From positions 1-31,262 of the IMG/VR virus record IMGVR_UViG_3300042890_002117: a stretch of 31,262 nucleotides of DNA, one strand, 5' to 3'. The first letter of the stretch is position 1. Every line of letters begins with the position of its first letter. Below are positions 758 to 31,262 of the stretch, one piece after another. This stretch comes from a virus. Below the pieces are notes generated by a model that was not told the origin of the DNA, made no database searches, and saw only the letters and a list, made by a program, of their open reading frames with translations. Made by a program: the position numbers and the translations under genes.

Positions 758-819
758 TATATTATTTTATGAATTGAAATATAGTAATTTTATACCAAAT
801 AGTATTATACCATTTAGTA

Positions 820-5502: not shown

Positions 5503-5532
5503 CAAAGATAGTTTATTTATATTTAGTATCAA
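5503..5532 (-). promoter_or_regulatory. Leftward promoter, probably leaderless
   Basis: On the minus strand, TTTTG ending at 5530 is followed by 19 bp and then TATCTTTG (5510-5503), matching the Bacteroidetes -33/-7 pattern in sequence and spacing. The ATG of the 129-residue gene starts only 4 nt after the -7 box. Confidence 0.75.
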
Positions 5533-5596: not shown

Positions 5597-5640
5597 TTCA
5601 AAATATATTTTGAATATCAATCTTTATTGTTTTATCTTTG
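5597..5640 (+). promoter_or_regulatory. Rightward early promoter with palindromic operator (O1)
   Basis: A perfect 18-bp palindrome, TTCAAAATATATTTTGAA (5597-5614), supplies the -33 TTG (5610-5612). After 20 bp comes the -7 box TATCTTTG (5633-5640), 33 nt before the ATG of the 72-residue gene. The same palindrome and flank (TTTAATTATC just upstream) recur at 7981. A protein bound here would cover the -33 element, so repression is the simplest reading. Confidence 0.8.
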
Positions 5641-7980: not shown

Positions 7981-8023
7981 TTCAAAATAAATTTTGAATA
8001 TTGAAATATCCTATTTATATTTG
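7981..8023 (+). promoter_or_regulatory. Promoter with palindromic operator (O2)
   Basis: The perfect palindrome TTCAAAATAAATTTTGAA (7981-7998) carries the -33 TTG (7994-7996). Nineteen bp later is the -7 box TATATTTG (8016-8023). The ATG of the 126-residue gene follows after 31 nt. The flank TTTAATTATC upstream is shared with O1. It should drive the recombination genes. Confidence 0.8.
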
Positions 8024-16888: not shown

Positions 16889-18081
16889 AAGTATTAAGTT
16901 TATTTGATGGAATGTCATGTGGGCAACAAGCTTTAGAACGTGCTGGATTTAAAGTAGATAAATACTTTGCATCCGAGATAGATAAGTATGCTATACAAGT
17001 TACAATGGCTAATTATCCTAACACAATTCAGTTAGGTAGTGTAGTAAATGTAGATGGATATTCTTTACCTAAGATTGATTTATTGATTGGTGGCAGTCCT
17101 TGTCAATCATTTAGCTTTGCTGGTAAGAGAAAAGGAATGGCTACTAAATGTGAAACAGAAATATTGACTTTGGAGCATTACTTGGAATTAAAAGAGCAAG
17201 GATTTGAATTTGAAGGTCAGTCTTATTTGTTTTGGGAATTTATGAGATTGCTTAATGAATGCAAACCTACTTACTTTTTATTGGAGAATGTAGAGATGGG
17301 AGAAAAGTGGGAGAAGGTATTGAGCAAGGCTATTGGAGTGAATGGCATCCATATCAATTCATCACTTGTATCAGCACAAAATAGGAAAAGAATATACTGG
17401 ACAAATATTGGAATGGAATCAAAAGGATTGTTTGGAGATATGGAAAGTATTATTAAGCAACCAAAAGATAAAGGTATATTGTTAAAGGATATTTTAGAAA
17501 GTGAAGTTGCTGAAAAGTATTTTTTAAGTGAGAAATCTTTTATTTTTGATAGAATTAAAAACAATCATCCATTTACTCCAAGAATACCAAATGCTAATGA
17601 AAAATCTAATTGCATAAAAATAGGTGGAAGTGGTGTAGATGATTTAATTAAAATTGATAAAAAAGGAAATATAAAGTCTAATCAAGATAAAGCATCTTGC
17701 TTCACAGCAGGTGGTCACTCAGGAGGGAATCACTCAGATATGGATTTAATAGTCCACAACACAATGCCACGTTCATCTACAACAGGTAAAGGTGGAACAG
17801 GACCATTGAGCAGAAACGATGGTAAGACTTACTGCTTAGATACTGGCAACACTAATGCTGTTGAGATAGTAGGACTAACAGAAGTAAGAAAGCACCCAAA
17901 AACATTAATAAATTCAAGAATTAGAAGATTAACACCCATTGAATGCGAACGATTGCAAACAGTTGCAGATAATTACACAAACCACGTTAGTGATTCACAA
18001 AGATACAAGATGCTTGGCAATGGCTGGACTATTGATGTGATAGCTCACATATTCTCTTATATTAAATTACCTACTTTTTAG
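16885..18081 (+). CDS. DNA cytosine-5 methyltransferase
   Basis: This 398-residue C5-methyltransferase carries motif I SLFDGMSCGQQA (5-16), catalytic Cys73 in GGSPCQSFSFAGKRKG, ENV at 134-136, QNRKRIYW (165-172), a target-recognition region about 200-340, and the C-terminal motifs RRLTPIECERLQTV and MLGNGWTIDVI. All key residues are present, so it should be active. No restriction endonuclease is adjacent, so a solitary modification enzyme protecting phage DNA is likely. With the 83-residue gene it forms a plus-strand cassette in the midst of minus-strand lysis genes. Its end overlaps the convergent holin-like gene by 11 bp. Confidence 0.94.
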   Translation: MKVLSLFDGMSCGQQALERAGFKVDKYFASEIDKYAIQVTMANYPNTIQLGSVVNVDGYSLPKIDLLIGGSPCQSFSFAGKRKGMATKCETEILTLEHYLELKEQGFEFEGQSYLFWEFMRLLNECKPTYFLLENVEMGEKWEKVLSKAIGVNGIHINSSLVSAQNRKRIYWTNIGMESKGLFGDMESIIKQPKDKGILLKDILESEVAEKYFLSEKSFIFDRIKNNHPFTPRIPNANEKSNCIKIGGSGVDDLIKIDKKGNIKSNQDKASCFTAGGHSGGNHSDMDLIVHNTMPRSSTTGKGGTGPLSRNDGKTYCLDTGNTNAVEIVGLTEVRKHPKTLINSRIRRLTPIECERLQTVADNYTNHVSDSQRYKMLGNGWTIDVIAHIFSYIKLPTF

Positions 18082-18454
18082 GCACATAGTAAGTCTTACT
18101 TACAAGTTGCAACACAAAGGACACAATAGAGATTACAAAGGTTATATTCACTCCTAACTGCCCATCAATAGGCATAATCTTTACCAATTCATTTAACCCT
18201 CCACAAGTTGAGATAAATGCCATTAGCAAGCCACTAATGGCTATCTTGCTTGGAATACTATCATGCAAATATTGATAAAGAGCTGTGTTTAATCCTGCTA
18301 TAATTGAGATGCACCCCATTATTATTGCCATTGTATTATTATCCAATGCACTAAACTGAGATGATGATAAAAGTAGTTGAATAGTGATAATTATACCACC
18401 GACTTTGAATAGTAACTTAGCTAAACTAAGTCTCTTAGCTCTTGTTAGCTTCAT
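18071..18454 (-). CDS. Holin-like membrane protein with four predicted segments
   Basis: In this 127-residue protein, hydrophobic segments lie at about 13-32, 41-60, 69-90 and 103-122, joined by short loops; the N-terminus (MKLTRAKRLS) and C-terminus (YYVPKK) are basic. The size and location between receptor-binding genes and the lysis cluster suggest a holin or lysis accessory protein. It overlaps the upstream membrane protein gene by 4 nt (ATGA). Function is by context and topology only. Confidence 0.65.
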   Translation of the reverse strand: MKLTRAKRLSLAKLLFKVGGIIITIQLLLSSSQFSALDNNTMAIIMGCISIIAGLNTALYQYLHDSIPSKIAISGLLMAFISTCGGLNELVKIMPIDGQLGVNITFVISIVSFVLQLVSKTYYVPKK

Positions 18455-18801
18455 GGTTTAATTTTTTTAACGATTGATTTTGCTAATGTATCAATGTGTG
18501 TGCTTGTTTTAGTCATGACATAAGATACCAACGATTTAGAAGCAAGGCAACTGATTAAAGCAGCTGATAGCATCATGCTTGGATTGTTAGTGAACTTCAA
18601 TACTATCCACCCAATCGAATAACCTAAGATAAACCCTATTGCACTCTCGAAAACTGCATCCCAAAATGGCTGTTTCTTGATGTGGTAAGCATTTAATAAG
18701 ACAATAAATGAGCCACCAATAGTGATAAATAGCAAGTTAGCCTTAGCGAATATCTGAGTGATTATGTCCCAAGCCATGTTGGTTAATTGTTCCTTTGACA
18801 T
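18451..18801 (-). CDS. Holin-like membrane protein
   Basis: This 116-residue protein has about three membrane segments (NLLFITIGGSFIVLLNAYHI, AIGFILGYSIGWIVLKF, MLSAALISCLASKSLVSYV) and a basic C-terminal tail (IVKKIKP). It resembles the LydA/holin-type small membrane proteins of phages. Translational coupling to the next membrane protein gene suggests the pair acts together, for example holin and a regulator. It follows the 75-residue gene by 6 nt, at the end of the fibre operon. Confidence 0.65.
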   Translation of the reverse strand: MSKEQLTNMAWDIITQIFAKANLLFITIGGSFIVLLNAYHIKKQPFWDAVFESAIGFILGYSIGWIVLKFTNNPSMMLSAALISCLASKSLVSYVMTKTSTHIDTLAKSIVKKIKP

Positions 18802-18807
18802 TAGTAT

Positions 18808-19035
18808 CTATGAGTTTATTGTATCTAAAATTTGTTGTAAATAAAAGAAGTCGCATCCTCCACTTGAAAGATAGATGGCATACTTCAATGCCTTTGTCTC
18901 CGAGTCTCCAATAGCATCTATGACTTGTTTATGTTCTGCATCTAATGGATCTAAACATATTATAATAGAGCCACTATCCACTATTACTTCCATGTGATAT
19001 ATACCATCTTTGTCTGAATAATATTTATATGTCAT
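18808..19035 (-). CDS. Small hypothetical protein after the fibre gene
   Basis: This 75-residue protein has a beta-hairpin-like first half (MTYKYYSDKDGIYHMEVIVD, SGSIIICLDPLD) followed by an acidic helix. It is not recognised. It starts in a TAATG junction with the fibre gene stop, so it is translated with it, and could be a fibre chaperone. That is positional inference. Confidence 0.68.
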   Translation of the reverse strand: MTYKYYSDKDGIYHMEVIVDSGSIIICLDPLDAEHKQVIDAIGDSETKALKYAIYLSSGGCDFFYLQQILDTINS

Positions 19036-20609
19036 TAGAATAAATTAAATGATATTTGAGTAAAAAATGTACTATTGCCTGTAGCATTATTGACCACTTT
19101 AATAGTGAGATAATCTCCAGCAGAAACAGCAATCGAATTGACATAGTCAGTAAATACTCCTGCAACAGAGCCTGCAGCTATTGTTACACTTATGCCTGTA
19201 GCCACCCCATTCTTATTGATTGAAACAACGCATGAGCCACTACTACTTTGAGTATTGGCAGTCTGTACTAATAACCTTGCAGCCACACAATCATTATTCA
19301 CAAAGTATCTTCTGTTATTTTCAGTAGTGTTATCTGCTTGAGCAGATGCTGGCTGATAGTATGAAGTAGTCGAAGCAGCAACAAAGTCAGATATCAACAT
19401 TGAATTTAAGATTGCTCTTGGATTAGATGAAGCAGTAGCAACACCAGCCACACCTAAGAAGATTTTGCCTGTTGCCAATGCACTATCCAACTTGCCATTA
19501 AATGTACTCCAATTTGCAGAAGATAAAGCTCCTCTATTAGTAGCAGATGCAGTAGGTAAGTTAAAGTTATGAACTGCCAATGATGAAGCAATATTAAAGT
19601 CAGCTCCTGTTGTTCCTACAGCAAATGATTGTACACTATCAGTCAATCCATTTAAAGCACTTATGCCTGTTGAGAATGAAGTGATAATCTCACATAAATG
19701 GCTGTTTTGAGTATGTAAAGTGATAGTTCTACCTGAATGAACGATATTAACGCTTATAGCAAGTCTATCAGTAGCAGTTAAGATTGTAGCAGGAACAGCT
19801 AAAGCGGTAAAATAAAGGTCAATTGAAGTGCCATTAGTTATTCCCTCAGGAGTGCCTGATGAAGTAGCTATCGAAGTGAACGAAGTACCATCATACTTAT
19901 ATAAAGTTACAGAAAAAGTAGGAGAGCCACCACTTGATGATGCACTAAACCACATCTCAAAATTCCAATTACCAGCAGGAATATTTAATAAACCAGGATC
20001 GCCAGCATCAGTTAAGAATCGTGCTATAATTCCATCAGCTGCAATAGTGAAGTCAGCACCGACACCAATTACAGGAGTCTTGCTCATCTCGTAATAAGTA
20101 TTGCCAACGAACACACCTTGATTAGTACCACCATTAAGATAGTAAGGCTGACTTGCACCACCACCACCACCTGAAGGGAAGTTAGCAAGCGAGCCATCTC
20201 CTCTAATATATTGACTTACTAAGCCTGCTCCTGTAACTGCTAATGTTCCAGCAGTTGTGATAGGATTGCCACTAACACTAAATGCTGATGGCATAGTAAG
20301 GTCTACACTTGTAACTGTGCCTGAGCCACCACCACCACCACATCCACATTGGCATAGGTTTCTTTGAGTTTCTATATATGTAAACAAATCCAATAGAGTA
20401 GCAAAAGCTCCCCCATTGATAGATGGAAGCTGAGCAAGATTGATTGTGATTTCTGTTGAGCCATCATTCAAGTAAAGAGTCCCCATCGTATCATTTTGGA
20501 ACATCTTTAAATTAGCCAACATAAATTCATTTATAGTGATGCCACCTGAATCTTGAATAGTCAAGATGCAGTCAGTATAACTTATGGTTTGTATATTACA
20601 ACTTATCAT
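19035..20609 (-). CDS. Tail fibre / receptor-binding protein with paralogous N-terminal module
   Basis: In this 524-residue protein, residues 1-94 form a module ending in the Cys-Gly cluster LCQCGCGGGGGSG. The same module makes up the whole 95-residue protein of the next gene upstream. Then come phage fibre linkers (GTVTSVDLTMPSAFSVSGNP, AGLVSQYIRGDGSLANFPSG), glycine-rich joints, a beta-rich part and a Ser/Ala/Asn-rich C-terminal region (about 410-524) likely to bind the host. GTVTSV... and QYIRGDGSL elements are common in Bacteroidetes phage tail fibres. The N-terminal module probably attaches the fibre to the virion, and the C-terminal end sets host range. Confidence 0.82.
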   Translation of the reverse strand: MISCNIQTISYTDCILTIQDSGGITINEFMLANLKMFQNDTMGTLYLNDGSTEITINLAQLPSINGGAFATLLDLFTYIETQRNLCQCGCGGGGGSGTVTSVDLTMPSAFSVSGNPITTAGTLAVTGAGLVSQYIRGDGSLANFPSGGGGGASQPYYLNGGTNQGVFVGNTYYEMSKTPVIGVGADFTIAADGIIARFLTDAGDPGLLNIPAGNWNFEMWFSASSSGGSPTFSVTLYKYDGTSFTSIATSSGTPEGITNGTSIDLYFTALAVPATILTATDRLAISVNIVHSGRTITLHTQNSHLCEIITSFSTGISALNGLTDSVQSFAVGTTGADFNIASSLAVHNFNLPTASATNRGALSSANWSTFNGKLDSALATGKIFLGVAGVATASSNPRAILNSMLISDFVAASTTSYYQPASAQADNTTENNRRYFVNNDCVAARLLVQTANTQSSSGSCVVSINKNGVATGISVTIAAGSVAGVFTDYVNSIAVSAGDYLTIKVVNNATGNSTFFTQISFNLF

Positions 20610-20613
20610 TTAT

Positions 20614-20901
20614 CTATCCTCTTGCACATGGACAATAGCAAGCATCAATCTGATTCTGAATAGCTGCCAATAACAAGTCAAATGTCGCATAAGTCGTAGG
20701 TACTAAGTTAGCATCTACCGTAGTTGTTGAGATAGTAAATGAGCTTACCAAGTCTCTCATGACAAATGATTCAGGCATATTGCCAGCATCAAGCATAAGC
20801 TCCGTTAAATCAAAGGTCATAAATGTATAACCAGCAGTATTTATTAGTAATAGTCTGCAATTTGCAAATGCTATTGAATATATTTTCTCGCAACAAGCCA
20901 T
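20614..20901 (-). CDS. Virion protein made only of the fibre's N-terminal module
   Basis: In this 95-residue protein the overall pattern matches residues 1-95 of the fibre: an N-terminal Cys strand region, then DLxxS-type strands, then a helix ending in a Cys cluster (ATFDLLLAAIQNQIDACYCP here, ATLLDLFTYIETQRNLCQCG in the fibre). It may form a collar or adaptor in complex with the fibre. It starts with MACCEK and sits 4 nt before the fibre gene, downstream of the capsid terminator, so its own promoter or read-through is needed; none is clear. Confidence 0.72.
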   Translation of the reverse strand: MACCEKIYSIAFANCRLLLINTAGYTFMTFDLTELMLDAGNMPESFVMRDLVSSFTISTTTVDANLVPTTYATFDLLLAAIQNQIDACYCPCARG

Positions 20902-20920
20902 AATTTTAATAATTAAAAGT

Positions 20921-20955
20921 TAAAAAAAAAGGGATGGGCAAGTACCCACCCCTTT
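20921..20955 (-). terminator. Intrinsic terminator after the major capsid gene
   Basis: On the minus strand AAAGGGGTGGG (20955-20945) pairs with CCCATCCCTTT (20938-20928) over 11 bp (one G-U), with a 6-nt loop, and is followed by a run of T. It lies 24 nt after the capsid stop codon and is the best terminator in the window. Confidence 0.88.
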
Positions 20956-20979
20956 AAAAAGAAAAAACAAACGAAATTT

Positions 20980-22059
20980 TTAGCAGATATTAAGTTGTGA
21001 GCAATCCATATCGCCACAAGCTAATTTCCATTGTAATTTTAAGTTAGCACCTGAAGGCAAACAACTGAATGCTGCAGTCGGAACGTAGAATAAGTCGTAA
21101 GATTTACGAGCAGTAATAGTATGCTTATCAGTACAAGCGTCATAATGCATAGTGAAGTCAAACATAACACCATTGTACTCTCTTACCTCTTTAACATCAT
21201 AATCAGTGTACAAAGCTCTATCGCCATTGTATCTATAAGACTCCATAAGTTGAACAGTACCATTAGCCCAAGTCAATGCTTTACATCCTGTAGCAGTTAA
21301 CAAAGCATCCATTCCACTATCAAAGTACATTGGTTGATTTCTTACCTTAGTAGCATCAATTCCTAAAGATGAGTTAGCAACTGCCAATCCACTCAAGTTT
21401 TGATACATATTAACGAAAGAGCCACCTACCATTGTGAATCCGTTAGTAACACCTAACTTGTTAAATTCATTTTCGATGATTGGAATACCTGCAGGATTGA
21501 TTTGTCCGTTAGTACCAATCAAGTTGATTGTTCTTGGAGCAGTCAATGAAGAAGTTACACCATCAGCATAGTTACCCATCAAAGCTTCAAGCTTCAAAGT
21601 GATGTCAGCATTTACTGCTCTTAATACTGTATCGAATAATTGAGTTACTTTAATCAACTTGTCAGTCTCTTGAGAATAACAAAGTGTATCATACTCAACA
21701 CGAGATAAAGTGATTTTCTTCCATACATCGCCAGTGATTTTTACTGAAGCATAACCATAAGGATCAGCTCCAACAGTTGCAGCAGTACAGATGTCTGTAG
21801 CAGTTACACCATCGCCACAATCAGGCTTTAGATATTGTAAGTCAATTTTAGGAAAAGTAGAGTTGATAGCTGCTTTATCTTCTAAAGTCTTAGTGATAGC
21901 TGCTAACCAATCTGTATAACCAGCCATGTTAGGCTCAGATTTCAATGCCAATAATACTCCGTTTTTGTTTACCCATTGAGAGGGAAGGTTTTGTTGCCCT
22001 TCTAATAAGATAGTAAGGTTTTTGCAACACGTTAAACCTGATGTAGCTGTAACACCCAT
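20980..22059 (-). CDS. Major capsid protein (probable)
   Basis: This 359-residue protein has its own late promoter, a roughly 110-nt leader with a 5' hairpin, and a strong terminator right after it, as expected for the most abundant virion protein. Features are an N-terminal Cys pair (TSGLTCCKNLT), a long helix then LKSEPNMAGYTDWLAAITKT, a central beta region with VRNQPMYFDSGMDALLTATG, and a C-terminus with CGDMDCSQLNIC. The lack of an obvious catalytic motif, size and gene context fit an HK97-fold capsid protein, though the fold cannot be proven by eye. The several Cys residues near both ends might cross-link neighbouring subunits. Confidence 0.72.
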   Translation of the reverse strand: MGVTATSGLTCCKNLTILLEGQQNLPSQWVNKNGVLLALKSEPNMAGYTDWLAAITKTLEDKAAINSTFPKIDLQYLKPDCGDGVTATDICTAATVGADPYGYASVKITGDVWKKITLSRVEYDTLCYSQETDKLIKVTQLFDTVLRAVNADITLKLEALMGNYADGVTSSLTAPRTINLIGTNGQINPAGIPIIENEFNKLGVTNGFTMVGGSFVNMYQNLSGLAVANSSLGIDATKVRNQPMYFDSGMDALLTATGCKALTWANGTVQLMESYRYNGDRALYTDYDVKEVREYNGVMFDFTMHYDACTDKHTITARKSYDLFYVPTAAFSCLPSGANLKLQWKLACGDMDCSQLNIC

Positions 22060-22145
22060 GTTTTTTTATAATTTAATTTGAAAAATAAATGATTGTGAGT
22101 ACACTCCTGGAAACCATTTTTAGAGATGTATGGCAAACATCGAAA

Positions 22146-22171
22146 TTAAGTTATCTTAATAAGATACTTAA
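22146..22171 (-). promoter_or_regulatory. 5' hairpin of the capsid mRNA
   Basis: Arms at 22146-22157 and 22161-22171 pair over 11 bp with a single bulged base and a 3-nt loop, located just downstream of late promoter A. A hairpin at the very 5' end of an mRNA can shield it from decay, as in ompA. The rest of the 88-nt leader has shorter inverted repeats (GAGTGTACTC; GATGT/ACATC). Confidence 0.55.
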
Positions 22172-22177
22172 CGAAAA

Positions 22178-22208
22178 GAAAGTTAGTATATCTTTTTGAT
22201 AAAGCAAA
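22178..22208 (-). promoter_or_regulatory. Late promoter A (capsid)
   Basis: Minus strand: TTTG (22208-22205), 19 bp, TAACTTTC (22185-22178) followed by TTTTC. The 13-mer TAACTTTCTTTTC and the upstream AATTTGC are identical in promoters B and C with the same spacing. Confidence 0.8.
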
Positions 22209-22242
22209 TTTTTTATAAACTATTTTTTTAATTAATTTTTAC

Positions 22243-22255
22243 TATATTTCTTTTC
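22243..22255 (+). promoter_or_regulatory. Candidate late promoter for the plus-strand structural trio
   Basis: TATATTTCTTTTC, matching the late -7 form TAnnTTTCTTTTC, lies 13 nt before the ATG at 22269 and diverges from the capsid promoter. The -33 position shows no TTTG, so it is weaker than A-C. Confidence 0.5.
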
Positions 22256-22268
22256 ATAAAAATATATC

Positions 22269-23099
22269 ATGGATTGTTTTCAAAATATAGTCGGAGTAGA
22301 AGCTTGCTCAAATTCAGTAAGCACAAGTGGATTGTGGATTAATGGTAAGCTTGGATTGCCAGGCATCAACATAAATAATGCAGCTCGAAGTGTAGATGGC
22401 GAGACCATTAGTGGATTTGAATTATTGGAAGGATGTGTTATGAATGCATCATCTGAGATAGTCTTATTAGCTACTGAGCATCTATCTAAATACTTTCAGT
22501 TTAATACTGTGGTCCAAGATTACAGCTCATCAAACAATGGAGCTTACACAACTAATCCTCCTAACTTATATATTCAAATTAGAGATGAGTGCAGAAAGTA
22601 CACATCATTCTATATTGATACCATGACCTTTTTAAGCACCGACACTCAAACTGCTGTGCTTACTATCAATGGCACTAATTATAATCTTGACTTGGTAGCC
22701 AACACCAATTATACATTTGAAGCTAATCTATCCTTTAATGCCGATTTGACTATCTCAATAGTAGGAACGAATATCAGAACTTTAGATTCTTTCTTTGATG
22801 GACTTATCCAGCAACGATGTGATGAGACTTTGTTCTGGTGCCAATATAAGAAGGAGCTTGCAATGGCTATCAGATATATGGCTGCCCATTTATTCTTTAA
22901 GGAAGTGGAGCTAACAGATAGATTCAACCTTTATACAACGATGACAAAGGATAATGCCAAGAATGAGAGTCTATTCAACTATAATAAATCAATGCAATAT
23001 CTTAAATCAGGAATCGAAAAGATAAAGAATATCGTATCTCGTGAGAACTGCTGTTGCATTACTTGTTCATCAATCAATTTTACTTACGCTAAACCTTAA
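22269..23099 (+). CDS. Cys-rich virion protein, possible head-tail connector
   Basis: This 276-residue protein begins MDCFQNIVGVEACSNSVSTS, then GLWINGKLGLPGI, and ends with the Cys cluster ENCCCITCSS. From memory many Bacteroidetes phages carry a protein with this kind of start (Cys near residue 3, short loop, then GLYIND-like) within the structural region, thought to be a connector or adaptor. A central beta-sandwich-like region (90-165) and a helical C-terminal third follow. It is the first of three plus-strand genes inside the minus-strand structural operon. No enzyme motif is present. Confidence 0.62.
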   Translation: MDCFQNIVGVEACSNSVSTSGLWINGKLGLPGININNAARSVDGETISGFELLEGCVMNASSEIVLLATEHLSKYFQFNTVVQDYSSSNNGAYTTNPPNLYIQIRDECRKYTSFYIDTMTFLSTDTQTAVLTINGTNYNLDLVANTNYTFEANLSFNADLTISIVGTNIRTLDSFFDGLIQQRCDETLFWCQYKKELAMAIRYMAAHLFFKEVELTDRFNLYTTMTKDNAKNESLFNYNKSMQYLKSGIEKIKNIVSRENCCCITCSSINFTYAKP

Positions 23100-23104
23100 A
23101 TATT

Positions 23105-23410
23105 ATGGCTGTATGTTGTTCTGCTTTCCAGCAATTAGGATGTATCAATGCTTGTGATCCTATTACATTAGGAACTGCTCCTGCTGATGGAGATTATATC
23201 TTACAAATTTCTTTTAATGACCACATTCAAATCTATCAAAAATACTTTTATTGGTTTCAACCTTTAGTATTTGATATTCCATTGAATGAGAATGCTAATT
23301 ATAAAGCAAAAGTAATCATGCCTAATGCTACTTATGACTTATGCTATCAGTTTACTACTTCTCCATCTACATTTCATGTATTACCTGACTCATTACCAAC
23401 TCCTCCATAA
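23105..23410 (+). CDS. Small Cys-rich structural protein
   Basis: This 101-residue protein has a Cys-rich start (MAVCCSAFQQLGCINACDP) and a beta-rich body (YILQISFNDHIQIYQKYFYW) with a Pro-rich end. It resembles small virion decoration or adaptor proteins in general form only. It follows the 276-residue gene by 5 nt and shares a TAATG junction with the membrane protein gene. Confidence 0.65.
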   Translation: MAVCCSAFQQLGCINACDPITLGTAPADGDYILQISFNDHIQIYQKYFYWFQPLVFDIPLNENANYKAKVIMPNATYDLCYQFTTSPSTFHVLPDSLPTPP

Positions 23411-23721
23411 TGATATACTTATTAATAATTGGCTTCTCTTATTGCTTGTCTGTAGTGTTTAACTCATGGACCGAGCCTGATATGATATTCGGCTTTTATT
23501 ATGAATGGCTGAAGAAGATTGGTAAGGTAGAACTAAATGAGGATGGCAGTATAAAGAGCTTCAAGAAGTTTATCAAACCTTTAGGATGGTGCATGATATG
23601 TACAAATGTATGGATTACTATCCTTTTGTTTGCTATTACAAGCATCTTCTATCCTATGGAGTATCTTTTATTGATACCTTGTATAATCGTGGCTAATTGG
23701 CTTGTAATTAAGTTTGGTTAA
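23410..23721 (+). CDS. Membrane protein with CxxC motif
   Basis: This 103-residue protein has an N-terminal hydrophobic segment (MIYLLIIGFSYCLSVVF), a short cytoplasmic or exposed part, then GWCMICTNVW and two closely spaced hydrophobic segments. The WCMIC pair could bind metal or undergo redox change. From memory small membrane proteins with this GWCxxCxNxW motif recur in Bacteroidetes phages. Its role in virion assembly or superinfection control is unknown. It converges with the minus-strand 23784 gene after 62 nt. Confidence 0.68.
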   Translation: MIYLLIIGFSYCLSVVFNSWTEPDMIFGFYYEWLKKIGKVELNEDGSIKSFKKFIKPLGWCMICTNVWITILLFAITSIFYPMEYLLLIPCIIVANWLVIKFG

Positions 23722-23783
23722 TTAACTGCAATTATAAGCTCACAGCCTTACAAATTAATCTATAAAGTAAGTTTACAACTTGA

Positions 23784-24245
23784 CTATGTGCAACAGCATT
23801 GCTCTTGTGAATATTCACAATCATTTACACTTCCTGATAATATAATATCAAATTCAGTAAGGAATAGATTGTCTCTTAATCTTGTCTCAGTTATTGTGTC
23901 CATTAATAAAATGATGTCATCAATATTAGGAGTATCAGTAAATATCAATGATTGAAATTTCTTCATCAGCCAAAAGGTCCAGTTGCAATCAGTTATAAAC
24001 TTTAAAGTATATCGCTGAGTAGCTCTCAATGAGCCACAAGACTGAAATTCATTTAGCTGTGTTATATCAATCTTGCCCTTAACAGCAAACATATAAAGAC
24101 CTCTATTATCATCATACCCAATCTGCTCATTATTCTTTTCTGAAAAGAACTGCTTGTTGGTTTCATAATATACTCCTAAATTATCTATCTTTTGCATGGA
24201 TGGATTATCATAAAAGTACATTGCATCAATAACTTGGCTAAACAT
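23784..24245 (-). CDS. Head-tail or tail-terminator-like protein
   Basis: This 153-residue protein has a helical start (MFSQVIDAMYFYDNPSMQ), a mixed alpha/beta body and a C-terminus with CEYSQEQCCCT. The position after the connector-like 159-residue gene corresponds to the head-completion or tail-terminator slot in siphophage modules, but no family motif was recognised. It is 12 nt downstream of that gene. Confidence 0.55.
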   Translation of the reverse strand: MFSQVIDAMYFYDNPSMQKIDNLGVYYETNKQFFSEKNNEQIGYDDNRGLYMFAVKGKIDITQLNEFQSCGSLRATQRYTLKFITDCNWTFWLMKKFQSLIFTDTPNIDDIILLMDTITETRLRDNLFLTEFDIILSGSVNDCEYSQEQCCCT

Positions 24246-24257
24246 ATCTCAATTAAT

Positions 24258-24737
24258 TTATTGGTTATAATATTCGTCTGTTTTTCTTTTAACAAATTTA
24301 TCTCCGATGATTTCAATCTCTTTAACTTCGGCTTCTGTTGGTGCAAAGATTTCTCCATATTGATTATTTAAGTAGTTAGCTACTTCTACTGTGCTTTGAC
24401 CGGTGGGATATTTCACATCAGTAACTGCTACATAAGTATTATTCGCACTCTTTACTTGTTTAACCGAGCCATACAATGTGCCACTTGCATATAGATTAAC
24501 CTTGCTTGCTAATGATGCTCCGTACTTCTTTGTCTTGGCTGTCTTGTAAGCTTCTGAATAAACTCCTAATGATTCACTCGCTGCATTCTTACTGCCCTCC
24601 TGGTTATTAAACATTCGCTTACTCATGATACCAATCATAGAAGTTGAGATGAGGACTTGAAGCTCGCCCTCACTCTCATTTATCACTTTGATTAGTCCGT
24701 TAAGACTATCCTTAACTTGTTGGCTTAGTTGTCCCAC
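24258..24737 (-). CDS. HK97 gp10-like head-tail connector (tentative)
   Basis: This 159-residue protein has an N-terminal helix pair (SQQVKDSLNGLIKVINESEG), a central region with NLYASGTLYGSVKQVKSANN and strand VAVTDVKYP, then a helix YLNNQYGEIFAPTEAEVKEI. This order (basic helix, SGxLYxSV segment, Y-x-x-YLN-x-YG) recalls HK97 gp10 proteins, which join the head and tail. Its start overlaps the 41-codon Cys-Gly gene by 26 bp. Confidence 0.6.
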   Translation of the reverse strand: MGQLSQQVKDSLNGLIKVINESEGELQVLISTSMIGIMSKRMFNNQEGSKNAASESLGVYSEAYKTAKTKKYGASLASKVNLYASGTLYGSVKQVKSANNTYVAVTDVKYPTGQSTVEVANYLNNQYGEIFAPTEAEVKEIEIIGDKFVKRKTDEYYNQ

Positions 24738-24837
24738 TTGCTCTTATATCTACAATAGTTATTTTTGGTGGTATCTTTTTTGATACCTCCGATATTCTTG
24801 GAACACCTCCACCTCCTCCTGAACAATTACATCCCAT
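24712..24837 (-). CDS. 41-residue Cys-Gly protein
   Basis: The ATG at 24837 opens a 41-codon frame reading MGCNCSGGGGGVPRISEVSK and ending ASGTTKPTS. Its A overlaps the stop of the preceding scaffold-like gene (TAATG), and its stop lies 26 bp inside the next gene, a tight fit for a genuine operon member. The N-terminal Cys-x-Cys and Gly run match the Cys-Gly clusters of other virion proteins here. Function unknown. Confidence 0.65.
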   Translation of the reverse strand: MGCNCSGGGGGVPRISEVSKKIPPKITIVDIRASGTTKPTS

Positions 24838-25631
24838 TACTTAGCTCCTAAACTGTTTAACATATCAATCTTTGCCTGCTGTTGTGGAGTAAGATTTCTG
24901 CTTCCTACCATTGTTGTAGTTGCTACTGCTCCACCAACTGCTGCTGCACTTGCTCCTGGACTTGCTGAATTAGATTTTTGATTGTAACTATCTAAGACAG
25001 TCCCCATGATAGCATCAACCTCATCAAACTTAAAAGTCTTATCGCCAATCTGTGGCTGTAGTCCATTTGCCTTCTGCTTGATTAATGTCTTTCTCTCTAC
25101 TGCATCATACTCAGCTACCAATCCCATTGATGCTAACTTCTGCTTGCCAATCAATACTCTATCTTCTAAAGTAAGTAAAGACTTATCCAACTTACTCGCT
25201 GAACTATTCAAAGTCATATCAATATAAACCTGATTAACCTCATCTCTTACCTTTGCCAATTCGCCAGGCATTCTTACCGTCTCTAAATCTGTGTACTTTT
25301 CTTTAATAGCAATTAACTCGTTCTGCAAAGCAATAGCAGTTTCTTGACCATTTGCTTGTAATAACTCTTTGCCCTTAGCAAGCACACTATCAATAGTATC
25401 TTCTTTATCTACAGACACCCCTAATGCTTTAGCTATCTTCTTTTGAGTAACCAATGTAGCTTCTTGATATCCTTTATTCTTATACTCATCAAATAGCTTA
25501 GGATCATTCTTGACCCCATCAATGATTGAGCCTTTCACTCTTTCAATAATCGCTGTCTGCTCATCTTCTGTTCCACTTGATAACTTTGTGATTTCCTCAG
25601 CTGTAAAGCCTAATTTTGATAATACTTCCAT
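24837..25631 (-). CDS. Scaffold-like head protein
   Basis: In this 264-residue protein, residues 1-175 are helical and coiled-coil-prone with many Lys/Glu/Leu (QEATLVTQKKIAKALGVSVD, LQNELIAIKEKYTDLETV). Residues 215-250 are a Ser/Ala/Gly-rich flexible segment (SPGASAAAVGGAVATTTM). The short C-terminal helix (TPQQQAKIDMLNSLGAK) could dock to capsid subunits, the design of gp20/GPO-type scaffolds. It is preceded by promoter B and the 102-residue gene. The capsid gene lies downstream beyond the plus-strand insertion. Confidence 0.66.
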   Translation of the reverse strand: MEVLSKLGFTAEEITKLSSGTEDEQTAIIERVKGSIIDGVKNDPKLFDEYKNKGYQEATLVTQKKIAKALGVSVDKEDTIDSVLAKGKELLQANGQETAIALQNELIAIKEKYTDLETVRMPGELAKVRDEVNQVYIDMTLNSSASKLDKSLLTLEDRVLIGKQKLASMGLVAEYDAVERKTLIKQKANGLQPQIGDKTFKFDEVDAIMGTVLDSYNQKSNSASPGASAAAVGGAVATTTMVGSRNLTPQQQAKIDMLNSLGAK

Positions 25632-25656
25632 TTGTTTTTTCTTTTTAAATTAATGA

Positions 25657-25965
25657 TTATTTTTTCTTTTTTTCTGTTTCGATTGGAGCTTCAACTGCAG
25701 GAGCTGAAACATTCAATCCTTTTTCTGCTATTACTAAATCCAATATCTCAGTAGTAACCATGATCCAATCAGTCTTAGTAACTCCACCATCTTCATTGGC
25801 ATTGATGTTTACATTATCATTGCCACACATCCTTGTAAGTGCTACTCTCCACTTCTCTGAATTTTCTTTGATAGAGATGATACCTGTGCTTCTCTGCATA
25901 AATACAAGCTCATCGCCTTTAACCTTATAGCCTAATGTCTGTAATTGTTTGTAAATTCCTGTCAT
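25657..25965 (-). CDS. Small head-region protein
   Basis: In this 102-residue protein, residues 1-80 appear to be a compact alpha/beta unit (MTGIYKQLQTLGYKVKGDEL, RWRVALTRMCGND-like region, TDWIMVTTEILDLVI), and the end is Lys-rich (IETEKKKK). No family is recognised. It is the first gene after late promoter B, about 25 nt from the expected start. Confidence 0.66.
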   Translation of the reverse strand: MTGIYKQLQTLGYKVKGDELVFMQRSTGIISIKENSEKWRVALTRMCGNDNVNINANEDGGVTKTDWIMVTTEILDLVIAEKGLNVSAPAVEAPIETEKKKK

Positions 25966-25997
25966 TTGTTTTTGTTTTTAAATATGAATGATGAAAA

Positions 25998-26028
25998 GAA
26001 AGTTAATTAAATTTTGTCAAGTTGCAAA
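25998..26028 (-). promoter_or_regulatory. Late promoter B (scaffold block)
   Basis: Minus strand: TTTG (26028-26025), 19 bp, TAACTTTC (26005-25998), followed by TTTTC; the same elements as promoters A and C. It fills the 63-nt gap after the MuF-like gene. Confidence 0.8.
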
Positions 26029-26871
26029 TTAAACTAAAGTAGGGTAAGCTTTATGGATGCAGTTATAACCACCCCTATTTTTTAAGAACTCGGCAATAGT
26101 GTTTGTCCCCTCAATCATGCCAGCACCGAATCCTGTTGGATCTTTCTCTGCTTTCTTTAGCGACTTTAAAACCTCATCATAAGGGATTGCTCCTGTGAAG
26201 TCATCAATGAAATGCTTACAGATAGGTCGTGAGCCTTCAATTAAAATCGAAGGAGTATAAAATAATGCATTCAATTTAAGCTCTGTGCTTATTCCTGCAT
26301 TCAATTCGCCTGTATATTGGTAAAGTGCATCTTGTGCTGTCTGCTTGGCCCACTTAACTAAGTCCCCTGTATCGTTAGTAGATTGGCCCATAAAATACTT
26401 TTCTAAGTTGCCCTGCAATTCAACTACTGATAGATTATTGTACATGGCTTCATAGAGTAAAGTCTGAACACGATTGACTACATTAACCTCATAGCCACCT
26501 GCAGTAAGTCCATCAGTAAATATACCATTGTTGTTTAAGAGTCTATCAGCCACCCTCTGAGATACCTTGTTGCCTAACTCCTTATTGATACCGATGTCAG
26601 TCCTTCCAACATCTTTGGCACTATCAACAAATTTTAATACATTAGCTTCATAGGTACTCTTATCCCTTGCATCAATGACATACTGCCTAACCTGGTTTAT
26701 CAAGTCATCATCAATAACTAATCTACCTTTCTTGGAAGATAAATCTTTGAGTATAAGCTTAAACAATTCTTTAAAAGTTTTTTCAGAGCTAATCTCTAAA
26801 CCCTTTAAAAAATCATTGATAGCTTGCTCAGATTCCTGTTGGGATTGTTCGTATAATTTGAGTATTGGCAT
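26029..26871 (-). CDS. MuF-like minor head protein
   Basis: This 280-residue protein overlaps the portal gene by 44 bp, the usual position of Mu gpF/SPP1 gp7-type proteins, which bind the portal and enter the capsid. The N-terminal two thirds are helical. The C-terminal domain has the Cys/His pattern of the MuF core: IEGSRPICKHFIDDF near 221-235 and the ending RGGYNCIHKAYPT. The domain probably helps DNA ejection or capsid assembly. Promoter B lies just after its stop. Confidence 0.8.
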   Translation of the reverse strand: MPILKLYEQSQQESEQAINDFLKGLEISSEKTFKELFKLILKDLSSKKGRLVIDDDLINQVRQYVIDARDKSTYEANVLKFVDSAKDVGRTDIGINKELGNKVSQRVADRLLNNNGIFTDGLTAGGYEVNVVNRVQTLLYEAMYNNLSVVELQGNLEKYFMGQSTNDTGDLVKWAKQTAQDALYQYTGELNAGISTELKLNALFYTPSILIEGSRPICKHFIDDFTGAIPYDEVLKSLKKAEKDPTGFGAGMIEGTNTIAEFLKNRGGYNCIHKAYPTLV

Positions 26872-28549
26872 CGTTTATTAATTCTTGGTCAGTTTTATTC
26901 CAATTAGAATCTATCTCTAACAACGATGTAAGTATTTTGTAGCCTTGCATATGGAAGTCAAAAGCATCATTAGACAATAACTGCATAGCCTTTAACTTGC
27001 TTATCTCATCAAGTGAATAGCCATAGTAGATATCGTTATTGATTAGCATCTTCATTGCTCTTTTCTCTACATCATCATATTCCTTATCTACATACTCATC
27101 ACTTAAAGACTTTACTAAGTCCTTACTGATTGTTCCTACCTTGATAATCTCGCTTAATACATCATCCTTGCTTCTTATCTCGTACTTAGTAGGCTTGACT
27201 ACTTTTACAGGCTCAGGATCTTGTAAATAACCAGCTATACATTGTAAAGAAAACTCCAATAGATTCATTAAATTGTCTCCAATGACTGCAATAAAATCTC
27301 TTTTTTGCTCAAGGTCATACTCTTTTGCTACTCCACTTTGAGTATTGTTCGACTGATAAACTGAGATAGACTGCTCCATCTTATCCATCATCTCAAACCA
27401 TATATCTTTATTTATTCCTACTGCTTCAAATGGTGGTGCATAAAATCTTACACTCGGAGTATCATTGGCTGTCTGCCCATCTAAATTGCTTGGTGCTGGT
27501 CTTACTATAACAGAATAAGGAGACAAGTCAGGAACAATCCCTCTGCCATGACAAGCTGAACAAGGACCTACGTTACACATCCCTCTTTCATGATTACATT
27601 TATTATCCATGCAATCCCCTAACATGACTTGACCTTTACCACGACAAGCAACACACTCAGTAGATAGTCTCTCCTCAATAGGAAATGAGAATCTCATCCT
27701 TACTGCATCAAAGTCAGATGAAGTAGTGATGGCTTTATTTGCCCATGAATTATAAGCAGTAAAGTAAGTATCGAATAACTTGTAGCTCTTTGTTTTTCTG
27801 CCCTTCTTAATCGTTCTAATAGTCTCCAATCCACCCAATACACGATAAGGAACAAACCCTAAATTATGATTATACCACAACGATAATTCATAGACTAATT
27901 TATTATCCTTATCCAATCTCACTGGAGTATTAATCCATATATCAGTATCCGTTATAATAGTGTAAATATCGCCCTCAATATCGCCAACCTTAGCTTCTCC
28001 ACTCTCATAGATTAGTATCTTGTCATCAATGTATTCAATCTCATCACTATTTAGATATTGGATAGCAACATCAACCCTCTCAGTAGTAGGCTGACCATAA
28101 GCTTCTAAAGGTGGCAAATTAGAATCATAAGTGTTAATCGGCAAAGCAATTATTAAACCATTGGCATCTTCAACTCCTAATTGTAGAAAGGTCTTAAAGA
28201 TAAGGTCAGTAATTGTCTGCTTATTGATTGATACAACAGAATCAAATCTATGAGTAGCTATATACTCCTTAGTGATATCGCCAGCAATAATCTTATAATC
28301 CGATTGCTTGACTAAATGATAAGTAGAATTTAATGCCTTTAAAATTGGATCTTGTGTTATCTTTTGAAAGATGCTAATCCTATAATCCAATATCTCTTTT
28401 GGCTCGTTAGGTCTCGCTATCTTTAATAACTTCTCAGGCATGACTCCTCTTGTATGGACAATCATCTCCTCATAAAAAGAAACCCAAAGCTCTCGTAACT
28501 TTGGGTCTATTTCTTTATCTAAATATTTCTGTACGATTTCTAATTCCAC
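26828..28549 (-). CDS. Portal protein with DnaJ-like zinc motif
   Basis: This 573-residue protein is the probable portal, the dodecameric ring through which DNA enters the head. The evidence is its size, position before the MuF-like gene, and the helical C-terminal part (GYSLDEISKLKAMQLLSNDA, FDFHMQGYKILTSLLEID). Unusually, residues 299-337 carry a zinc-finger-like set: CVACRGKG (299-306), C313, C318, C325 and CSACHGRG (330-337), the CxxCxGxG repeat of DnaJ. It lies 15 nt after the tail-tube-like gene and may be read from promoter C. Confidence 0.76.
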   Translation of the reverse strand: MELEIVQKYLDKEIDPKLRELWVSFYEEMIVHTRGVMPEKLLKIARPNEPKEILDYRISIFQKITQDPILKALNSTYHLVKQSDYKIIAGDITKEYIATHRFDSVVSINKQTITDLIFKTFLQLGVEDANGLIIALPINTYDSNLPPLEAYGQPTTERVDVAIQYLNSDEIEYIDDKILIYESGEAKVGDIEGDIYTIITDTDIWINTPVRLDKDNKLVYELSLWYNHNLGFVPYRVLGGLETIRTIKKGRKTKSYKLFDTYFTAYNSWANKAITTSSDFDAVRMRFSFPIEERLSTECVACRGKGQVMLGDCMDNKCNHERGMCNVGPCSACHGRGIVPDLSPYSVIVRPAPSNLDGQTANDTPSVRFYAPPFEAVGINKDIWFEMMDKMEQSISVYQSNNTQSGVAKEYDLEQKRDFIAVIGDNLMNLLEFSLQCIAGYLQDPEPVKVVKPTKYEIRSKDDVLSEIIKVGTISKDLVKSLSDEYVDKEYDDVEKRAMKMLINNDIYYGYSLDEISKLKAMQLLSNDAFDFHMQGYKILTSLLEIDSNWNKTDQELINDANTQIIRTIPTGI

Positions 28550-28564
28550 CTATAAGTTGGTTTA

Positions 28565-29155
28565 TTAAATTCCTAAAGCAGCTTCAATACCAGCAACAAC
28601 ATGACCAACGATAACAGGATTGTCATTGATAAAGCTCAATGTCAATTCATATACTTGGTTATCTTTTGTGCCATCTTCTCCAACCATCAAACCACCATCA
28701 ACGATAGCATCAATGCCACTATGAACAGTTGTAGAACCTGTTGTGTAATCAGGATTGTAGAATATTTGACCATTACAATCTACCCAAAAGAATCTGTATA
28801 AAGGACTATTCTTGATAATATCATTAAAGAAAGCATAGTCAGTCGCCGTAACTGAATCAATGTAGTAAGTCTTGAATGCTAAAGTATGAGTGTATGTTCC
28901 AATAGGGAAATCTACTTGGCAACTTTCATACTTCTTCTTGTCTGAACTTGGCAATGGCTTAGAGCCGATACCCAATGGAAGTCCTACAATAGTGCCAGCA
29001 GTAACTGCTGCTGCAACATCAACTATATCAGTAAGGTCAATGGATGTATGACAGTCCATCACTCCGATATATTTAATACCTGCTTTTCTTTTCGCTTTCT
29101 TACAGTCGCCATAAGCTGTTGGCAACGTAGCCGTACATAATGCATCACAAATCAT
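28565..29155 (-). CDS. Probable major tail tube protein
   Basis: In this 196-residue protein a Cys-rich start (MICDALCTATLPTAYGDCKK) precedes a beta-rich core with THTLAFKTYYIDSVTATDYA, a helix (FNDIIKNSPLYRFFWVDC), and the C-terminal QVYELTLSFINDNPVI. A strand-helix-strand fold with QVYELTLSF near the end is like tail tube proteins of other Bacteroidetes phages. It stands between the 81-residue gene (4-nt overlap) and the portal, and the chaperone-like locus diverges from it 340 bp away. The tube order is unusual, since portal genes normally come before tail genes. Confidence 0.62.
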   Translation of the reverse strand: MICDALCTATLPTAYGDCKKAKRKAGIKYIGVMDCHTSIDLTDIVDVAAAVTAGTIVGLPLGIGSKPLPSSDKKKYESCQVDFPIGTYTHTLAFKTYYIDSVTATDYAFFNDIIKNSPLYRFFWVDCNGQIFYNPDYTTGSTTVHSGIDAIVDGGLMVGEDGTKDNQVYELTLSFINDNPVIVGHVVAGIEAALGI

Positions 29156-29397
29156 GATTTATTTTTTTTAGATTTAGTAAAAGTTTCGTTTGTTTTTTCT
29201 ATATCTAAACCCACTTCTTCTGTGGTAGTGTTTTCTTCTATTGCTTGCTCAACAGCCTTTTCAACTGCTTCAATGTGCTTAGGAATATCAACATAAACCT
29301 CATAGCTAATCATAAGACCTTGACCTGCTAATTTATCAAAGATTGAATCCTTGATTTCTGAAATTTTGCCTGTACCTCTATTGATGTATAACCCCAT
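29152..29397 (-). CDS. Small hypothetical protein, first gene of late block C
   Basis: This 81-residue protein has the compact start MGLYINRGTGKISEIKDSIF and an acidic helical middle (HIEAVEKAVEQAIEENTTTE), then a Lys-rich tail. Unknown. Its ATG lies only 5 nt after late -7 box C, so its mRNA is probably leaderless or nearly so. ATGA junction with the tail-tube gene. Confidence 0.65.
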   Translation of the reverse strand: MGLYINRGTGKISEIKDSIFDKLAGQGLMISYEVYVDIPKHIEAVEKAVEQAIEENTTTEEVGLDIEKTNETFTKSKKNKS

Positions 29398-29402
29398 GAA
29401 AA

Positions 29403-29433
29403 GAAAGTTAATTAAAATAAATTAACTTGCAAA
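29403..29433 (-). promoter_or_regulatory. Late promoter C (tail tube/portal block)
   Basis: Minus strand: TTTG (29433-29430), 19 bp, TAACTTTC (29410-29403), then TTTTC and the start codon ATG at 29397. Identical core to promoters A and B. Confidence 0.8.
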
Positions 29434-29468
29434 TTTTTATTTAATTATTTTTTACTAACTAAATTTAG

Positions 29469-29476
29469 TATTTTTG
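29469..29476 (+). promoter_or_regulatory. Candidate promoter for the plus-strand chaperone-like locus
   Basis: TATTTTTG matches TAnnTTTG and lies 17 nt before the ATG at 29494. No clear TTTG lies 19-20 bp upstream. It diverges from late promoter C. Confidence 0.5.
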
Positions 29477-29493
29477 AATCAAGAAAAAACAAT

Positions 29494-30072
29494 ATGAAGA
29501 ATCCATTAAAAAAGCTATTCACTAAAAAGAAACGAATAAGTAAGATAGGAAACAAAGAAGTCCATCTTAATCTTGTCTATACCGATGCATTTGGCAATAA
29601 TTGGTATGAGCCTACCGACTTAGCCGACTATCCATTTATCAGAATTAACCATATACAGACTTATTCAAGGTATGCAGAGCTTAAAATGACTCCTGATAGG
29701 CTTAATAAAATCAATAAAGCAATACTTCAATGTGCTACTGATGGAGATATGAATGGAATCATAGTCCTGGCAACCGAAATACAGATTGCAGAGCAGATGT
29801 TTTGTGAGAAAACTACCCTACTAAGATTGGCAAGTGCAATGTTTCTCATCAATAATGAGCCACCAAACTCGTGGAATGAAGAATATGAGCAGAAGAAAAT
29901 TGAATCAATGCTTAACGATGCTGATTGTATGGCTTTTTTTTTGCCCATGGCCTACCGAAACTTGAAGTCCTACAGCGAAAACTCCGATTTGCAGGTTATA
30001 GAGTATTTGCAGGAATCGTTGAACAAGATGAACAGATTGTCTTATCTGCTAGAGAATATTTTGCAAAAGTAG
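29494..30072 (+). CDS. Tail assembly chaperone-like protein, frame 0 product
   Basis: In this 192-residue protein the N-terminus is very basic (MKNPLKKLFTKKKRISKIGN), followed by a beta/alpha region (YTDAFGNNWYEP) and a helical part (MTPDRLNKINKAILQCATDG). The frame ends at 30072, but 9 Ts at 29934-29942 allow a -1 shift into an overlapping open frame reaching 30236, giving a longer fusion. Such a short/long pair is the hallmark of tail assembly chaperones (lambda G/GT), which guide tube polymerisation around the tape measure protein. The location beside a tail-tube-like gene agrees, though the tape measure lies elsewhere. Confidence 0.65.
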   Translation: MKNPLKKLFTKKKRISKIGNKEVHLNLVYTDAFGNNWYEPTDLADYPFIRINHIQTYSRYAELKMTPDRLNKINKAILQCATDGDMNGIIVLATEIQIAEQMFCEKTTLLRLASAMFLINNEPPNSWNEEYEQKKIESMLNDADCMAFFLPMAYRNLKSYSENSDLQVIEYLQESLNKMNRLSYLLENILQK

Positions 30073-30236
30073 CCGAAGATACCAACATGAATCTACTGAC
30101 TGTCTCTGAGCATTCAGGCATTCCACTTGACACATTGACCTATTCAATCACTACCTTAGAGCTGTTTAGTATATGGTCATCCATTATAAGAAAGATAGAG
30201 ATATCAAACGAACAAATCGAAAAAGCAAACAAATGA
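29925..30236 (+). CDS. Downstream -1 frame (extension domain of chaperone-like fusion)
   Basis: This frame has no ATG at its start (it opens with TTG at 29925) and is entered from the 29494 frame through the slippery T run; the joined product would be about 247 residues. It begins FFFAHGLPKLEVLQRKLRFA and ends SNEQIEKANK, with an amphipathic helix (VSEHSGIPLDTLTYSITTLE) and a Trp-containing helix (LFSIWSSIIRKIEIS). In other phages the extension (T domain) binds the tape measure protein. It is joined to the next gene by ATGA. Confidence 0.6.
   Translation: MYGFFFAHGLPKLEVLQRKLRFAGYRVFAGIVEQDEQIVLSAREYFAKVAEDTNMNLLTVSEHSGIPLDTLTYSITTLELFSIWSSIIRKIEISNEQIEKANK
29934..29942 (+). promoter_or_regulatory. 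-1 ribosomal slippery run (T9)
   Basis: Frame 0 reads GCT TTT TTT TTG, containing the heptamer T TTT TTT in the right phase for a -1 slip. It is the longest homopolymer noted in any gene here and lies where the two overlapping frames meet. Confidence 0.6.
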
Positions 30237-30475
30237 AATTAACAACTAAAATAAACGAAATGACACTAAGAGACAAAATGAAACAAAGAGCCACATATAC
30301 CAATTATTGTGATGGCTTAAATGGAGATGATAGAATCAATATTGACAATCTAATCCTTGATAGAAAGGAATATGCTGAAGCTTTCTTAAATACCAACATC
30401 CCTAAACAGCAGGATCATTGGCAAAAGAAAATCAATCAAACAAACGATTTAATAAAACGAATCTTACTACTCTAA
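30233..30475 (+). CDS. Small hypothetical protein
   Basis: This 80-residue protein is basic and helical (MKLTTKINEMTLRDKMKQRA, KQQDHWQKKINQTNDLIKRI). I chose the ATG at 30233, which overlaps the preceding stop as ATGA; a longer frame from 30173 overlaps that gene by 64 bp. It overlaps the end of the minus-strand tail gene by 4 bp. No family is recognised. It could be a small partner of the chaperone-like protein. Confidence 0.6.
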   Translation: MKLTTKINEMTLRDKMKQRATYTNYCDGLNGDDRINIDNLILDRKEYAEAFLNTNIPKQQDHWQKKINQTNDLIKRILLL

Positions 30476-31262
30476 CAGCTCTTGTTAAATATCTGACATA
30501 CCTTCTCAAGCTTGATGGTAGGAAACCACATTGAACTCTTATCATTGCCCTTAGTAAATCCACCTTTAACTTGATAGTATTGAGTATCGCTACCAATAGT
30601 TATTCTTAAATTCTTACCACCTAAGATAGCTTTTAAGTTTTGAACTTGCCATTGTGGAATCTTCCATACATTTAATTCTTTATTCTCAATCATCCTTGAC
30701 TTGGTATGCTTAGTTATGCTGGAGATAGTCGTATCTACTTCTAAGTAAGTATTCTCAATAGCCACTTCCATATACTCTACAACTGCCTTTAAACGGATGC
30801 AGTTAGACATTGGAACGATAGTGCCAGGAGTAGTGTAGTAGTCTGTTGAATAGCTCCATACTCGGTTATTACAATCAATATTATCATAGTCTGAACATAT
30901 CAAGATAGAACTTTCATTGCATTGAATAAGGCAGTAAGGCTCACTCATGTAAGCTTCAAAATCATAAACAAATTTAAGTCTAAAACAATCCTCATCAGTT
31001 ACATCTCGAATATCACTAAACAGAAATTGAGTAGTTGATTGAACTCCATACTCATTGAATGAAGTAGTTGAATTGAATGTAGTTGTGCTTCCTAATAAAG
31101 TAGCACCATCAGCTGAATAGACATCTATCCTTATTAGCTCTTGACTTCCATAATGAAGTGATAATTGAGTAGTGAATGAATCATCAATAAGGTAAGGCTG
31201 GCAATAGCACTCGCCACATAAGACATCATGATTGAATCCTATGTTGGTGGCACAATTACCTA
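30472..31262 (-). CDS. Tail-associated protein, C-terminal part (5' end outside window)
   Basis: The frame is open from the right edge to the stop at 30472 (262 residues visible). A shorter version beginning at ATG 30948 exists, but the open frame continues upstream with protein-like sequence (FNHDVLCGECYCQPYLIDDS and many S/T strands), so the ATG is internal. The visible chain is beta-rich with many Cys, Ser and Thr, and a repeated type of element (DVYSADGATLLGSTTTFNST). It fits a distal tail or tip protein by context: its tail neighbours, the tape measure at the other window end and the same strand. Family not recognised. Confidence 0.65.
   Translation of the reverse strand, partial: GNCATNIGFNHDVLCGECYCQPYLIDDSFTTQLSLHYGSQELIRIDVYSADGATLLGSTTTFNSTTSFNEYGVQSTTQFLFSDIRDVTDEDCFRLKFVYDFEAYMSEPYCLIQCNESSILICSDYDNIDCNNRVWSYSTDYYTTPGTIVPMSNCIRLKAVVEYMEVAIENTYLEVDTTISSITKHTKSRMIENKELNVWKIPQWQVQNLKAILGGKNLRITIGSDTQYYQVKGGFTKGNDKSSMWFPTIKLEKVCQIFNKSC

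Follow-up and report, generated by a model that had tools for sequence, protein, structure and literature searches.

The window analysed here is the whole of the linear viral record IMGVR_UViG_3300042890_002117 from IMG/VR (31,262 bases, 34% G+C), and the element in question is a 13-bp box repeated upstream of several structural-type operons, where it could serve as the -7 element of a dedicated class of promoters. The sequence-only reading had reported AATTTGC placed 18 bp before an identical 13-mer at three minus-strand sites. This composite, AATTTGC-N18-TAACTTTCTTTTC, was indeed present in three exact copies, all on the minus strand (22173-22210, 25993-26030, and 29398-29435), with 0.03 matches expected even when up to 3 mismatches were allowed. 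Among 7+13 composites whose spacing is fixed at a value of 10-25, it was also the sole one to occur three times in the window, and five shuffles contained none. These copies, further called class I sites, precede gene starts by 0-113 nt. At site 1 the box (22173..22185, minus strand) lies 113 nt before a 359-aa gene (20980-22059), with its -33 element AATTTGC at 22204..22210. At site 2 the box (25993..26005, minus strand) is 27 nt before the gene 25657-25965, and the -33 element is at 26024..26030. At site 3 the box (29398..29410, minus strand) abuts the ATG of the gene 29152-29397, and the -33 element is at 29429..29435; the start predicted for this promoter coincides with the first base of the ATG, which would give a leaderless mRNA. 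At all three sites the TTTG of AATTTGC is located 19 bp before the box, which is the host -33 distance. The spacers of sites 2 and 3 are alike, while those of site 1 and of the two class II sites described below differ.

The comparison of inverted repeats showed that the set of boxes is wider than the three copies recognized previously. The fourth match, which had been noted in the opposite orientation, is real, although it has no AATTTGC at the -33 position; it corresponds to the box TATATTTCTTTTC (site 4, 22243..22255, plus strand), which is 13 nt before the gene 22269-23099, diverges from site 1, and has no TTTG at -33. This site pairs with the minus-strand sequence 754-787 at the start of the gene 2-757, where a further box that had been missed, TATATTTCAATTC (site 5, 771..783, minus strand), lies 13 nt before the ATG of this tape measure gene, which runs off the contig. 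Sites 4 and 5 form class II. The frame common to all five sites, TAnnTTTCnnTTC, further called the general box, has six copies in the window, of which five are upstream of genes. These five are intergenic and are on the strand of a gene starting 0, 13, 13, 27, or 113 nt later; five of the six copies fall within the intergenic 6% of bases, each oriented like the gene that follows it. The general box was found in 5 of 24 gene-upstream regions, as compared with a mean of 0.031 in dinucleotide shuffles, none of 2000 of which reached five, but this figure overstates the case, because the box was defined partly from these sites and then counted. Of the five sites, the most independent is the one before the tape measure gene. 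In both classes the last three bases are TTC and the next base is A or G, which makes a start 5 nt after the box plausible, and the two free positions before this TTC vary among the window's own sites (TTTTC versus AATTC). Sites 1 and 4 form a divergent pair about 60 bp apart (22171-22255), which faces structural-type operons in either direction.

To follow the box in related phages, the tape measure upstream region of the window was aligned with those of five related contigs (L060-L063 and L065). The string AAATTAC-TATATTTC-nn-TTCATAAA was unchanged across the six sequences, and the stretch from the preceding stop codon to the box contained gaps and many substitutions; the only change within the box was in its free positions, from AA to TT in L065. 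The expectation that the motif recurs in close relatives held for the general box of the tape measure gene, kept in five contigs. The exact composite was found as a promoter nowhere else. Searches of viral contigs and GTDB genomes for the exact or relaxed composite returned 56, 26, and 8 stretches with no promoter-like recurrence. Most of the inspected matches were antisense inside genes, and one recurrent family consisted of related AT-rich phages. The class II string TACTATATTTCNNTTCATAAA was found only in relatives of the window phage. No relatives covering the other four sites were found in the collections searched. A separate feature of this region is a dyad, TTATACT-AATC-AGTATAA, located just 5′ of the tape measure -7 box in L061 and L063 (about 9855-9885 in L061) and weaker in the window, which may represent either an operator or the place where the upstream transcript ends.

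The boxes were compared with the promoters known from flavobacteria. In Flavobacterium johnsoniae the -7 element is TAHHTTTG, in which T-12, A-11, T-8, T-7, T-6, and G-5 are nearly invariant, and transcription starts 4 or 5 nt downstream from it (PMC6847099). In F. psychrophilum three sigma-A motifs vary subtly around TAnnTTTG, and an alternative motif, SM5, reads TAnnTTGY at positions -12 to -5 (PMC9723704). As the sequence-only reading had stated, host-type boxes TAnnTTTG are present in the window, where they account for most of the other promoters, while the boxes studied here end in C instead of G and carry an extension: position -5 is C in all five, in place of the G of the sigma-A box, and the TTC extension is kept. 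They also differ from SM5, because position -6 is T in each of them, and of its last two positions they share only the pyrimidine at -5. A TTTG about 19 bp upstream, at -33, is present at the three class I sites and absent at both class II sites. In a sample of a Flavobacteriaceae chromosome (149 upstream regions from one genome) TAHHTTTG was about threefold more frequent than in the shuffle, while TAHHTTTC was at the shuffle level and the general box was found in none of the 149 regions. All upstream regions of eight Flavobacteriia phages, some of them covered in part, together contained one general box. In Cellulophaga phage phi10:1 TAnnTTTG precedes the terminase, portal, protease-capsid, and tail blocks, and therefore late genes in this host group do not generally carry a TTTC box. 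The Rfam search gave no match. Two other assignments of the boxes were rejected: a promoter of an extracytoplasmic function (ECF) sigma factor, since no ECF-type AAC-N15-18-CGTTA was found in the window, and a translation signal, since the distance from the box to the ATG varies between 0 and 113 nt.

Among the genes downstream from the boxes, the gene 2-757 has a full-length relative in L063 (994 aa) that matches tail tape measure families. The labels of capsid, scaffold, and tail-tube/portal given to the other blocks by the sequence-only reading gained no support, as nothing usable was obtained from Pfam, PHROGs, NCBIfam, a PDB sequence search, or two AlphaFold models; the latter, single-sequence models of two late proteins, had a pLDDT (predicted local distance difference test) of about 30 and were unusable. 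The names capsid, scaffold, and portal are guesses from gene size and order. The 359-aa gene is flanked by site 1, with a 113-nt leader bearing a hairpin directly after the site (22145..22172, minus strand; z = -1.75, modest), and by a strong intrinsic terminator (20928..20955, minus strand). Because of this terminator, the transcript from site 1 would contain a single gene, and such a high-output layout would suit a major capsid gene. The same non-host box stands before several structural-type operons, including one with an identified tape measure gene, and before none of the replication genes; judged by gene content and position only, the genes behind it would be late.

Host-type promoters of the same phage are found at other operons. 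The terminase operon has the promoter TTG-N19-TATCTTTG (5503..5532, minus strand) with the box 4 nt from the ATG, and two early promoters on the plus strand, at 5610..5640 (TATCTTTG) and 7994..8023 (TATATTTG), have a palindrome overlapping their -33 element. This perfect 18-bp palindrome, TTCAAAATnnATTTTGAA, is found at 5597-5614, 7981-7998, and 10076-10093, and it supplies the -33 TTTG of the early promoters. Both L061 and L063 conserve it, L065 has a near copy, and an imperfect copy lies at the terminase promoter (about 5528), while class I and class II promoters are devoid of it. It is probably an operator, and an obvious candidate for the protein binding it is the helix-turn-helix (HTH) protein with an HTH_3 domain encoded at 14009-14320. 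The -7 box of the helicase gene (10111-10118), TATCTTGC, does not follow TAnnTTTG, and fits exactly the SM5 motif TAnnTTGY.

Taken together, we consider it probable, with considerable reservation, that the boxes serve as -7 elements in a dedicated class of structural (late) promoters, which are read by the host sigma-A polymerase and licensed by an earlier phage product. The consensus of this class is TAnnTTTCnnTTC, then a purine start, with TTTGC at -33 in three of the five sites. The position of the boxes upstream of gene starts and on the coding strand, the host -33 kept at three sites, the departure at -5, and the conservation of one site all support a distinct class. The kept TA..TTT core and the -33 TTTG of class I suggest that the host RNA polymerase with sigma-A would still be used and would read these elements, while the C found at -5 throughout, together with the TTC extension, suggests that something alters what this polymerase accepts. 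The C at -5 would make the box poor for unaided sigma-A, and an earlier phage product, which could be a small sigma-like factor, a sigma-A-binding protein, or an activator, would license it, possibly via the extra TTC at -3 to -1. The early genes would use the host TAnnTTTG boxes with the operator palindrome over -33, so that the two classes could be switched separately. The more specific version, in which a phage factor switches the sigma-A reading at -5 from G to C, adds the TTC at -3 to -1, and keeps the host -33 contact, is put forward only tentatively. The earlier suggestion of a phage sigma-like factor or polymerase modifier reading the box is consistent with the distinct promoter class, but no sigma domain was matched among the proteins tested from the window, which is a fragment. 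Since both the -33 element and the TA..TTT core are retained, host sigma-A aided by an activator or a modified polymerase would fit no less well than a sigma-like factor.

Several points weigh against this explanation. The promoter class is predicted from sequence. No sigma-like or late-activator protein was found with Pfam in the scanned window proteins, although HMMER would miss a divergent factor and the record is a fragment, the contig being incomplete. Both class II sites are devoid of the -33 TTTG, while the terminase operon, which is usually late, has a host-type box. Searches for the identity of the genes downstream from the boxes succeeded only for the tape measure gene. Finally, of the five sites only the tape measure box is represented in relatives, one of which, L060, is nearly the same genome.

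Alternatively, the boxes could belong to normal promoters of the host sigma-A in which the last base is degenerate, and which are alike as a result of recent duplication or of selection for weak or tuned strength, with no phage factor involved. The TA..TTT core, a -33 TTTG that is spaced as in the host (19 bp) at three sites, and the likeness of sites 2 and 3 also in their spacers are consistent with this explanation, as are the subtle variants among the sigma-A motifs of F. psychrophilum (PMC9723704). On the other hand, C is found at -5 in all five boxes where the G of F. johnsoniae is nearly invariant (PMC6847099), TAHHTTTC is not enriched in the Flavobacteriaceae sample, the TTC extension is conserved, and TTTG and TTTC are divided by gene class. 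Moreover, simple duplication fails to explain all five, given the different spacers of site 1 and the class II sites, and we regard this explanation as unlikely, if still a serious one. It is less probable still that the 13-mer is the operator of a phage regulator laid over ordinary promoters, so that the regulator and not the polymerase reads it. Thirteen identical bases exceed the needs of a -7 element, and the phage encodes HTH proteins (the HTH_3 protein and a DnaA_C protein at 13512-14009), but the 13-mer lacks palindromic symmetry, its conserved letters sit on the -7 frame TAnnTTT and the start-site spacing, and the early-gene operator of this phage looks different, as it is a perfect palindrome. 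An activator may touch the box, in which case this explanation would merge with the preferred one.

It appears very improbable that the boxes are read by an alternative sigma factor of the host similar to that presumed for the SM5 motif. In F. psychrophilum (PMC9723704) SM5 has the same place (-12 to -5) and a pyrimidine at -5, and the helicase promoter of the window agrees with it, but the motif needs G at -6, where all five boxes have T. Chance, or a repeat that is not a promoter, can practically be set aside: the matches to the exact or near-exact composite in public collections are scattered and mostly antisense in genes, but the position, strand, and significance of the boxes in the window and the conservation of the tape measure box do not agree with it.

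The relation of the boxes to known systems can be described as follows. With the promoters of the Bacteroidota primary sigma (sigma-A or sigma-ABfr; -33 TTTG and -7 TAnnTTTG) they share the TA..TTT core, the 19-bp distance to -33 in class I, and a start expected 4-5 nt downstream, and they differ in the C at -5, the added nnTTC, and the absence of the -33 TTTG in class II. With SM5 they share the position, the TA core, and the pyrimidine at -5, but have T instead of G at -6, and no TTC extension is reported for SM5 in the part of its description that is accessible. The late promoters of T4 (gp55/gp33/gp45) are similar in that one repeated non-host -10-like box precedes several late operons, but their sequence is unrelated, and the phage factor of the window is only postulated. 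T4 late promoters are devoid of a host-type -33, whereas the window boxes keep one in part. Nonlabens phages P12024L/S are another example of Flavobacteriia phages with their own repeated box before structural-type operons, but their layout is ECF-like (AAC...CGT) at a fixed 4 nt from the ATG, as judged from the repeats of P12024L, and the window has no such site. In P12024L (contig L125) six operons carry a TTTYCGTTAWTA-like, CGTTA-type element precisely 4 nt upstream of their ATG (at 162, 3015, 5394, 24754, 25995, and 27595), with AAC about 16-17 nt upstream. This phage also encodes a Sigma70_r2 protein (21405-21884; 25.2 bits versus the Pfam cut-off of 24), possibly a phage sigma with its own promoters. 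The presence of this protein together with the operon repeats suggests that a dedicated phage sigma is possible in this host group; no relative of it was found among the window proteins.

Little appears to be published about early-to-late transcription switching in Bacteroidota phages, and our literature search found no late-promoter studies in Flavobacterium phages. A promoter switch hinging on the last base of the -7 element is not described in the Bacteroidota phage papers that we found. As the primary sigma of Bacteroidota reads a non-standard promoter, a one-base departure specific to a gene class is a testable handle on how a phage might retarget the polymerase. The altered start signal suggests that the virus retunes the host transcription machinery midway through infection, and this class of boxes could supply an infection-dependent promoter for flavobacterial genetic tools.

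The search of 50,697 phage records with 21 kb of the window gave no near match. The host of this uncultured phage is likely, although not proven, to belong to Flavobacteriales, because the window helicase is 55% identical to the helicases of Flavobacterium columnare phages and the promoter sequences belong to the Bacteroidota type. Parts of the left half are covered by seven related contigs, of which L060 is 99.95% identical over 4.1 kb, and the others mostly about 80-99% identical in aligned segments. Unlike the left half with its close relatives, the right half (18000-31262) encodes mostly proteins without a match in Pfam, PHROGs, NCBIfam, or the collections searched. Three late proteins had no relatives in viral contigs, and two of them none in phages; no relatives of the portal candidate were found in 399 Flavobacteriaceae genomes in a search without a positive control, and a terminase profile search of genomes gave no match. 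Contigs resembling the right half may simply escape viral detection. The recognizable genes are those of the terminase large subunit (2351-3655, minus strand), Erf (8460-8996), a YqaJ-like exonuclease (8986-9639), NinB (9636-10070), a helicase/methyltransferase (10150-12318), an endolysin (14322-14777), and NinG (14795-15466).

Boxes located 4-5 nt from an ATG were found at 5503-5510 and 15706-15713, which end in TTTG and are both 4 nt from the ATG, and at 29403-29410, which ends in TTTC. The genes behind them are predicted from this spacing to have leaderless mRNAs, which constitute about 5.5% of mRNAs in F. psychrophilum (PMC9723704).

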